Assembly (NCBI GenBank): GCA_026388275.1
Contig: JAPLKB010000047.1
Coordinates: 1 to 50,039, forward strand
Direction of reading: 5' to 3'
Length of the DNA: 50,039 nucleotides
Origin: Pseudomonadota bacterium
GTDB lineage: Bacteria > Desulfobacterota > Syntrophorhabdia > Syntrophorhabdales > Syntrophorhabdaceae
The position numbers and the translations under genes were made by a program. Each line of letters begins with the position of its first letter. Position 1 is the first letter of the stretch. This document shows, piece after piece, positions 45,019 to 47,431 of this stretch. The notes below the pieces were generated by a model, which was given only the letters and a program-made list of their open reading frames with translations, searched no databases and was not told the DNA's origin.

Positions 45019-45318
45019 ATGGACAACACCCTCGGTGCAAAAAGCAAGACCTGACCCCCAACTCCTAAACGTAAATACCGGCCTTGTTGCTGCGGACGTC
45101 TTCGCCAACAAGCGATACTGGACGCCTGCACAGGGCGGCGATGCAGGCTCTCCCCAGCTCGGCACATGGTCTACGACACCGAATAATGAAGGACCGCCGA
45201 AAAGCGCCGGGAGTTTCTGAAGCTCTTATGCCGCTTGCATATTTTTCTTTATTTCAGTTTCTTTTGCTCTTCACGTGGCTTCCCGCTTCGCGCTTCCCAA
45301 GTCCTCTTATCTTTTCTA

Positions 45319-45354
45319 CTATGTCCCGCATAAAGCGGGATTAAACCGTACACT
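45319..45354 (+). repeat. 36-bp palindromic repeat R1
   Basis: CTATGTCCCGCATAAAGCGG and then GATTAAACCGTACACT, with the internal hairpin TCCCGC-ATAAA-GCGGGA. It is followed by ATTCACTATTAACTATTCAC. It flanks the ParB-like gene; R2 is the inverted copy on the other side. Confidence 0.9.
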
Positions 45355-45386
45355 ATTCACTATTAACTATTCACTATTCACTGCCT

Positions 45387-46316
45387 TTATACTTGCGGCG
45401 GTCTTTTCTTTCCGTACGGGGTTATAAACATCTGTTGCTGCACAAAATTACAGAAAACCTGCAGTTCATAGAGATATTTTTCAACATCTTCCCGTATATA
45501 GGTTCCAATGCCTTTCTCAAAATCTGTTTTTATGGATATCAGACCTTTAACCTGCTTCTTAACGGATTTGGGCTTTGTATTATTCGGGTCAGGTTTGACT
45601 TTTTTGTATGCTGTGAGCATCCTTTCAAGTGTAGCATTTGTTACCGGTGTCTTTATGACAGCATCGAATATGTTTTTAAGATTGGGACATTCGAGGTTTG
45701 CGGCAAAGAGATATCCCTGTGAAACAGGGAGATTTCCTGACGAAATTGTTGCCTGAATTTCAGGAGAAAGTTTTAAAAGTGAAATAGTGCGATGCAGCGT
45801 CCGTATTGACTTTCCGGAGATTTCAGAAATTTCTGCCACAGTGGCAGAAAAATCTTCCGATACATATTCTGGAGAACGATTGTAATTTACCAATTCACTC
45901 ATTACCCCATCCACATCATATCCCTTCTCAGGATGTTTTGCCTGAATAAAAGAGAGTATCCCTTTGGCCTGGTCTATGGGATTTAGGTCTTCACGCTGGA
46001 GGTTCTCAGTAAGTTGAATGGCTATAGTGTCCCCTAATTCATTACCTGCTTCAATAACTCGCACCGGTACGGTTTCAAGCCCGAGTTGTTGGGCTGCAAC
46101 AAGACGCCTCTCTCCACAGATGAGTAGATATGTCCCGTCATCCTGCCCTGTTACAATGAGAGGTTCTAAGATGCCTTTGTCTTTAATCGATTGCATGAGA
46201 GACTTGAATGAGTCTGTTTCAATATCAATGTTCGATCTCACCTGTTCCATTACTACAATCTTGTCTACTGGAATGTACAGAAACTCAGGATTTACACTTG
46301 TCTTCTTAGTTGCCAT
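45387..46316 (-). CDS. Orphan ParB/RepB/Spo0J-like protein
   Basis: A 309-aa protein. ParB N-terminal domain: ILEPLIVTG, CGERRLVAAQQLGLETVPVR (GERR motif, CTP-binding type), QLTENLQREDLNPIDQAKGI. A helix-turn-helix follows at about 145-180 (FSATVAEISEISGKSIRTLH). No parA is next to it and it is bracketed by inverted R1/R2 repeats, so it may be part of a mobile cassette, not the chromosomal segregation protein. Confidence 0.88.
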   Translation of the reverse strand: MATKKTSVNPEFLYIPVDKIVVMEQVRSNIDIETDSFKSLMQSIKDKGILEPLIVTGQDDGTYLLICGERRLVAAQQLGLETVPVRVIEAGNELGDTIAIQLTENLQREDLNPIDQAKGILSFIQAKHPEKGYDVDGVMSELVNYNRSPEYVSEDFSATVAEISEISGKSIRTLHRTISLLKLSPEIQATISSGNLPVSQGYLFAANLECPNLKNIFDAVIKTPVTNATLERMLTAYKKVKPDPNNTKPKSVKKQVKGLISIKTDFEKGIGTYIREDVEKYLYELQVFCNFVQQQMFITPYGKKRPPQV

Positions 46317-46339
46317 ATTAATCCCCCTTTTTGAAATTC

Positions 46340-46423
46340 AGTGTACGGTTTAATCCCGCTTTATGCGGGACATAGTCGTTAGTGAACAGTGTACGGTTTA
46401 ATCCCGCTTAATGCGGGACATAG
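46340..46423 (-). repeat. Palindromic repeats R2 and R3 in tandem
   Basis: R2 (46340-46375) is an exact inverted copy of R1. R3 (46388-46423) is the same orientation as R2 with one change in the loop (TTTAT to TTAAT). Between them are 12 bp including CGTTAGTGAACA. Confidence 0.9.
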
Positions 46424-46784
46424 TTAAAGACATTTTATTAATCCAGTAATCATTTTATTTATTTCGTTAATATCAGCTTGAATATCCTTTGTTTTTATCT
46501 TTCTTCAAAAAACCCAATTCCTCAGAAAGCAGCACTTGAGTCTCCAACTCTGCTAATGACCCGAGCGCTATATACAAAAACTGTTTATACTCCTTATTAT
46601 ACCTTTTCATGAAACCTTCGGCTATGTTTGAAGGTACTGACACAGCAGATCTCCGCATCTGACTTATTATTCCGTAAATCTCTTTTGCAGGAAAAGAATC
46701 AGTTTCTTGATAAATAACCTTTGCTAATTCCATACTAGTTTGCCATATCTTCAAATCCTTGAAATTTTTAATTTTATCTTCCAT
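46424..46784 (-). pseudogene. S23-type four-helix-bundle protein gene, frameshifted at the 3' end
   Basis: The first 95 residues are a normal four-helix-bundle protein of the type encoded in 23S rRNA intervening sequences: FKDLKIWQTSMELAKVIYQE, IYGIISQMRRSAVSVPSNIA, EGFMKRYNKEYKQFLYIALG, LETQVLLSEELGFL. The frame then stops at GYSS, while the neighbouring frame continues DIQADINEINKMITGLIKCL to TAA (46424). A one-base slip near 46490 in an A-rich run would restore it. May be real or a sequencing error. Confidence 0.8.
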
Positions 46785-46840
46785 TTTTTATCTTCCCGTT
46801 TTTACTATTCACTACCTTTTCATTTTTTCTGCCTTTTTAA

Positions 46841-46876
46841 CTATATCCCGCATAAAGCGGGATTAAACCGTACACT
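46841..46876 (+). repeat. 36-bp palindromic repeat R4
   Basis: CTATATCCCGCATAAAGCGG and then GATTAAACCGTACACT, one base from R1, followed again by ATACTATTCACTATTCACTG. With R3 it brackets the four-helix-bundle gene. Confidence 0.9.
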
Positions 46877-46982
46877 ATATACTATTCACTATTCACTGCC
46901 TTTTCACATTTCATGTCTCGTATCTCGTTAAAGATTCTTCTATGAGGTTTTTACATTTCACGAACAGCACTTTGCGATCAGC

Positions 46983-47020: not shown

Positions 47021-47431
47021 TCAAATAAATATTACTTTTTTTCGATATATCTTTATTATTGCCCTTATCAATTCAGTGTCATCCATACCTGCTCGCTGAA
47101 GGGAAAAGAGGAGTTCTGCTCCTTTTCTGGCAATCTTAACAATTTCCTCAAACTCGCCATGACGCCCGGCTTTATAATACTCTTGCCTAAACCGCACTAT
47201 TTTTGATAAAGACCGACTAAATCTCTGATTTTCCTTCCCCCTTTTTTCCTGGCAGCTTTCGCAAAAACAATCACCGTGTCTTTCAGCCATCCCTAACAGC
47301 TTGGTGATCCTGTCATGAGGGAATTCTTCTTTTGTTACCAAAACCCTTAAGGCTTTTACGATATTAACAAAATCCAATGCCTTTTTCCCGTCTGCTTTTT
47401 TTTCTGGAACGATTTGTTCTGGCTCTGCCAT
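47021..47431 (-). CDS. Unknown helical protein
   Basis: A 136-aa charged, mostly helical protein. It contains a cysteine cluster DCFCESCQEKRGKE (C-x-C-x2-C) with a preceding His, a possible metal site, and the helices FVNIVKALRVLVTKEEFPHD and GEFEEIVKIARKGAELLF. Start has AGAGGTGAAG upstream and the gene has its own terminator, so it is probably expressed. No family recognised. Confidence 0.6.
   Translation of the reverse strand: MAEPEQIVPEKKADGKKALDFVNIVKALRVLVTKEEFPHDRITKLLGMAERHGDCFCESCQEKRGKENQRFSRSLSKIVRFRQEYYKAGRHGEFEEIVKIARKGAELLFSLQRAGMDDTELIRAIIKIYRKKVIFI

Follow-up and report, generated by a model that had tools for sequence, protein, structure and literature searches.

Results

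Two neighbouring genes between inverted heptamer arrays

Two neighbouring genes of a Syntrophorhabdaceae bacterium, one for a ParB-like protein and one for a protein of the 23S rRNA intervening sequence (IVS) protein family (IVP), each lie between inverted arrays of a 7-bp repeat. With a probability of about one half, we take them to be two IVS-like single-gene elements, copied by repeat-mediated recombination together with IVS-type insertion and carrying no dedicated transposase of their own. The window, that is, the whole stretch of DNA analysed (50,039 nucleotides), is contig C47 (JAPLKB010000047.1) of a genome of 3.53 Mb in 71 contigs (GCA_026388275.1); other C numbers denote contigs of the same genome. 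Positions in the window are listed in Table 1.

Table 1. Features of the two cassettes, with positions in the window and strand.
Feature	Position	Strand	Remark
R1, 37-bp palindromic repeat	45318–45354	+	3' side of ParB-like gene
ATTCACT heptamer array (AGTGAAT in gene sense), left bracket of ParB-like cassette	45352–45382	+	
ParB-like gene, 309 aa; ParB_N CTPase domain, HTH_ParB, variable recognition segment 141–180	45387–46316	-	
R2, palindromic repeat	46340–46376	-	24 bp upstream of ParB start codon
Degenerate heptamer GTTCACTAACG between R2 and R3	46377–46387	-	
IVP cassette as RNA, terminal stem of R3/R4 and arrays, ORF in loop	46380–46900	-	predicted fold
R3, palindromic repeat	46388–46424	-	abuts ancestral end of IVP reading frame
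IVP (four-helix-bundle) gene, 103 aa	46473–46784	-	23S_rRNA_IVP/TIGR02436
Inner heptamer remnant TTTACTATTCACT upstream of IVP	46801–46813	+	
R4, palindromic repeat	46840–46876	+	upstream of IVP
ATTCACT heptamer array, outer bracket of IVP cassette	46874–46897	+	

An earlier, sequence-only reading of this DNA had described two single-gene cassettes, each between inverted copies of one palindromic repeat. The window search bore out the four repeats: the 37-bp unit matched four times with up to three mismatches, and never in 100 dinucleotide shuffles. R1 and R2 are 100% complementary, R4 and R2 97%, and R2 and R3 are 97% identical. The ATTCACT-rich trailers that had been noticed on R1 and R4 are also real (six matches, 0.09 expected). 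On the minus strand, the order is AGTGAAT array, R4, IVP gene, R3, one heptamer, R2, ParB-like gene, AGTGAAT array and R1, and the heptamer reads ATTCACT before the ParB-like gene and AGTGAAT after it and before the IVP gene. Each window gene is therefore a single-gene cassette in inverted brackets, with no transposase inside, as had been proposed, but the brackets are oppositely directed ATTCACT/AGTGAAT arrays, and the palindrome is an extra unit within them. At the array junctions, ...aacgactattcactgaattt... on C18 stands against ...aacgact-atgtcccgcataaagcgggattaaaccgtacact-gaattt... in the window; such comparisons of copies that have and lack the palindrome show it to be an insertion within the heptamer array.

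IVP genes of several phyla mostly lie between inverted arrays

The window IVP protein matched PF05635, the IVS protein family (E 1.3e-34), and a relative of solved structure (2gsc, E 1e-23); a single-sequence structure model was poor (pLDDT 51) and was left out of use. The gene is probably decaying, because a frameshift sets its C-terminus apart from those of the C51 and C58 copies. At four loci of the same genome, an IVP gene stands directly upstream of a ParB-like copy. PF05635 occurred in 70 of 118 genomes across the phylum, with up to 14 matches in each.

We compared the flanks of 45 IVP loci from several phyla, including Cyanobacteria, a Nitrospiraceae record and Bacteroides, which were reached via named records. 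In the genomes of the phylum, the flanks carry short tandem arrays that differ by locus (CGTAAAT, CTGTTAG, GGTCAGG, AGTGACT and others) and run in opposite orientation on the two sides. When the left flank was aligned with the reverse complement of the right, the median score was 36, compared with 16 for direct alignment and 16 for outward controls (p ~1e-8), and a 7-bp periodicity was present in 67% of IVP flanks versus 2% of controls, period 8 being the next commonest. RNA duplex energies between flanks were noisy, with low values in the outward controls too, and were dropped in favour of alignment and periodicity. At the 45 loci, the IVP genes are mostly flanked by inverted arrays of 7-8-bp repeats whose sequence is locus-specific. 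Because the orientation is inverted rather than direct, we argue that the arrays belong to the element and not to the target.

In the open-licence literature, we found no description of IVP genes set between inverted heptamer arrays. Tandem 7-bp repeats in intergenic DNA are also seen in the cyanobacterial STRR heptamers and the TAACTGA repeats of Beggiatoaceae (PMC4679880), but nearly all TAACTGA sets stand upstream of genes as direct repeats (PMC4679880), whereas the IVP and ParB arrays are inverted pairs around a gene family. In Calothrix sp. PCC 7103, a split ORF that, as read from the ORFs, resembles an ISL3-type transposase precedes five near-identical IVP copies (L336–L340), with two more at ~83%. 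This case is possibly an insertion sequence with IVP as a passenger, and these copies were set aside as a guide to element ends on account of that upstream ORF.

Predicted hairpins and likeness to the 23S rRNA IVS

In predicted folds, the transcript of each cassette forms a long terminal stem that loops out the gene. The fold of the window IVP cassette has an energy of -150 kcal/mol (z = -9.6), an unrelated IVP locus gave z = -6.6, and for the ParB cassette a 38-bp stem of R1 and R2 is predicted around the gene. This layout resembles the 23S rRNA IVS that encode S23p/IVP in Leptospira and Coxiella, in which a stem of complementary ends loops out the IVP ORF and for which mobility has long been suspected. 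In the Coxiella IVS, too, tandem heptamers (GACAGAT) precede the ORF (PMC4990558). Unlike the 23S IVS, the window element lies between protein genes and not in rRNA (Rfam detected no rRNA in the surrounding 10 kb, where the neighbours are protein genes). It also differs in that the arrays stand on both sides, inverted and with a sequence particular to each locus, in that there are several copies per genome, and in that a ParB-like gene lies alongside in a matching setting.

A ParB-like family amplified in a few relatives

The window ParB-like protein matched ParB_N and HTH_ParB (E 5e-15). Its model has the ParB/Noc CTP-clamp fold, with Noc 7nfu and ParB 7bnr as the best structural matches in Foldseek, together with the ParB of Myxococcus and Caulobacter. 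The GERR and ENLQRxDLNP motifs are conserved, and the core CTPase motifs are kept in all or nearly all copies. In domains, motifs and fold, the protein thus resembles the chromosomal CTP clamps ParB, Noc and KorB. It departs from them in having tens of dispersed copies with an exchanged recognition segment and no ParA beside the window copy (no ParA domain was present among the neighbours scanned). In a search for parS-like sites, we found no palindrome common to copies of the same recognition segment.

The genome gave 50 matches to the window protein, corresponding to about 40-50 copies and fragments, although contig ends and collapsed repeats could distort such copy numbers, the amplified genomes being draft assemblies. 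Sixteen are ORFs of at least 290 aa with 55-100% identity. Among the others are many fragments and frameshifted copies, and many lie at contig ends, as expected if ParB-like copies break the assembly; a few distant matches are probably ordinary ParB. Of 99 relatives, three (a member of the same genus and two members of a single other genus) reached 23 scored matches or more, and two others had 14 and 7, whereas the other 30-odd members of the bacterial family, and genomes beyond it, had merely 1-5 weak matches. A few relatives share the amplification of the ParB-like gene, whereas most members of the bacterial family lack the gene. Records with copies include the MAGs LacPavin_0920_SED1_MAG_45_15, AlinenSediments_bin-2384 and Syntrophus sp. 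SW.010. A copy with 64% identity was also present on a short contig labelled Thermoplasmata archaeon (L223, JAUSPR010000149.1), which is probably misbinned. Plasmids, phages and viral contigs yielded no close relative (at best ~25-49% identity over part of the protein), and an origin of the family in plasmids or phages was rejected.

The part common to all copies is solely the stretch from the ribosome-binding site to the stop codon, and no other gene is constantly linked to it. Some copies have an IVP gene upstream and some a conserved non-coding leader, whereas others have neither. The leader, ~100-200 bp long, is of two alternating types, one on C34, C15 and C33 and a second on C18, C11, C52, C20, C43, C32 and C68; these may be structured RNAs or promoters. 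Many ParB-like copies have no inverted arrays at all, and therefore the arrays cannot be the sole means of spread. On C51, a group II intron with the only reverse transcriptase gene detected in this genome (G000:C51 8277-10105; L113 3778-5581) sits antisense between residues 197 and 198 of a ParB-like copy.

Purifying selection and exchange of the recognition segment

The dN/dS ratio of the ParB-like copies was 0.18 overall, 0.10 for residues 1-140 and 0.41 for residues 141-178 (235 close pairs), which shows at the codon level that the protein is under purifying selection. Residues 141-180 make up the predicted recognition helix and the helices that precede it. Pairwise distances in one half of the CTPase domain correlated with those in the other at 0.85, whereas the correlation was just 0.05-0.07 between the CTPase domain and the recognition segment, and 0.04 between the recognition segment and the C-terminal part. 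The nearest neighbour by CTPase domain was also the nearest by recognition segment in only 2 of 53 copies. At codons 151-180, DNA blocks share 96-100% identity in pairs of copies, some of them from different genera, whose identity is 56-80% in many of the adjoining windows. As judged from these alignments, the recognition segment is exchanged among copies almost independently of the CTPase domain, a module exchange beyond mere variability, and homologous gene conversion is its presumed cause. We found no report of shuffled ParB families in the open-licence literature.

In exchange of target-recognition domains of HsdS and in gene-conversion repertoires, a recognition module is reassorted against a conserved body. 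The ParB-like family resembles these systems in that respect, but here the protein is a DNA-binding CTP clamp dispersed over the genome, with no known expression locus.

Two explanations take the protein itself as the reason for the amplification, and we consider both unlikely, to a similar degree. According to one, the ParB-like protein drives the spread of its own gene, as a selfish gene whose diversifying recognition helix opens new sites. The restriction of common sequence to the gene, the strong constraint combined with a diversified recognition segment and the patchy expansion agree with this. However, by fold and motifs the protein is a ParB/Noc CTP clamp, a class for which we know of no strand-transfer activity, and no site varying with the recognition segment was found. 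According to the other, host selection and not selfishness maintains the copies, which would serve as a bank of DNA-binding CTP clamps differing in their exchanged specificities and might act in the silencing of foreign DNA, in regulation or in the partition of many replicons. The low dN/dS across dispersed copies and the reassortment of recognition modules against conserved CTPase domains, even across genera, favour such a useful repertoire, but the many fragmented and frameshifted copies, the rest of the bacterial family living mostly without the gene, the lack of ParA beside the window copy and the absence of a meaningful PADLOC match speak against it.

The palindrome follows the genes but is not their bracket

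The 37-bp repeat has 22 copies in the whole genome, 19 of them no more than 250 bp from a ParB-like or IVP copy, a space that makes up 1.5% of the genome (binomial p ~2e-32). An inverted pair encloses only three genes, namely both window genes and the ParB-like copy on C11, and most ParB-like copies carry one palindrome or none. The repeat is tied to ParB and IVP genes, yet it is no systematic bracket, and on this point the sequence-only reading fails. The palindrome was also rejected as the cognate site of the ParB-like protein, for it does not track the recognition segment.

That reading had further inferred exchangeable cassettes mobilised by a transposase acting in trans. The exchangeability agrees in part with the data: what stands upstream of ParB differs, the sites are many, and one site differs between two species. 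This site, on C61, has ~1.2 kb with ParB in the genome studied and 43 bp in the sister species (G001), with both flanks matched; it is our sole two-sided comparison, and its junctions are too diverged for a target-site duplication to be read. At four other sites, the sister has a conserved flank and no ParB within the few kb fetched. Loss in the sister rather than gain is possible, because a genome of another genus (G016) has a ParB-like copy after the same neighbouring gene as on C61. The homology between ParB-like copies ends raggedly, not sharply.

For the mobilisation in trans there is no supporting evidence. The genome-wide transposase survey covered the Y1 family (PF01797), which had no match in this genome and matched in 5 of 14 control genomes. 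If the cassettes were MITE-like and mobilised by a transposase encoded elsewhere, the palindromes would be their terminal inverted repeats. This idea draws on the inverted pairs R1/R2 and R3/R4 and on the similar pair on C11, but it is improbable: three genes are bracketed among 22 repeats, several ParB-like copies lack a palindrome, the palindrome lies within heptamer arrays and not at the ends of homology, and the one two-sided site is too diverged to establish target duplications. In a MITE or insertion sequence, every copy, and not three genes only, would have the palindrome on both sides.

Window positions 47021-47431 hold a 136-aa ORF of unknown family whose DNA shares 98% identity with the sister species and 95% with another genus, exceeding the 77-91% of most other flanks compared. 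It adjoins a seeming IS3-transposase relic and was probably transferred recently.

Ordinary REP/REPIN repeats that are chance neighbours of paralogues would likewise be short GC-rich palindromes in intergenic DNA, and three of the 22 copies are solitary, one between two consecutive flagellar operon genes (G000:C59 46633-46663). Solitary repeats all over the genome had been named as the finding that would tell against cassettes; since 19 of 22 copies adjoin ParB-like or IVP genes, the repeat is no ordinary scattered REP. This tie to one gene family and the absence of a RAYT or Y1 transposase make the explanation very improbable. Equally remote is retro-mobility, in which a reverse transcriptase in trans would copy hairpin RNAs back into DNA, proposed on account of the relation between IVP and the Avd protein of diversity-generating retroelements (DGR): IVP matches the PHROG 'Avd protein of DGR', a distant relation in line with the structural homology of IVP and Avd (PMC10053308), and hairpin RNAs are predicted, but 44 of the 70 IVP-bearing genomes, including the single-contig G066 and G082, have no RVT_1 match, RVT_1 showed no clear association with IVP among the 118 genomes (26 of 70 IVP-positive, 14 of 48 IVP-negative), and the only RVT_1 match of the genome studied is the group II intron that landed in a ParB-like copy, with no DGR-type reverse transcriptase.

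Discussion

In the explanation that we prefer, two neighbouring IVS-like elements, each would consist of an ORF between inverted heptamer arrays decorated with the 37-bp hairpin unit, and its transcript would fold back into a stem that loops out the gene. IVP would be the usual ORF of such elements, and the ParB-like CTP-clamp gene would have taken up the IVS-like setting in many copies and multiplied to dozens in a few related genomes. Homologous recombination or gene conversion among dispersed copies and arrays would have remodelled the copies. Presumably, the ParB-like proteins are made and used, and the arrays may act at the RNA level through RNase III-type processing, by analogy with the 23S IVS. 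The demonstrated architecture, predicted hairpins, copy number, patchy distribution, purifying selection and recognition-segment exchange are to be weighed against several points that count against this explanation, namely the array-less ParB-like copies, the ragged edges, the possible loss in the sister species and the frameshifted, decaying IVP gene of the window.

It is possible, though the odds are somewhat against it, that these genomes hold a transposase-free, genome-wide repertoire of ParB-type CTP clamps, with modules reassorted across copies and genera and partly housed in IVS-like hairpins, and that the IVP genes across phyla are the ORFs of widespread dispersed elements defined by inverted, element-specific arrays of 7-8-bp repeats. 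For decades it has been an open question how 23S intervening sequences originate and spread (PMC4990558). The anatomy seen here is consistent, an IVP gene in inverted heptamer arrays, outside rRNA and in several copies per genome, and it would therefore turn the origin and spread of the 23S IVS into a problem of comparative genomics with many natural examples. A ParB-like family that keeps its CTPase switch while reshuffling its recognition segment would be a natural library on ParB specificity, and it may represent a selfish gene, or a DNA-binding repertoire, of a new kind.
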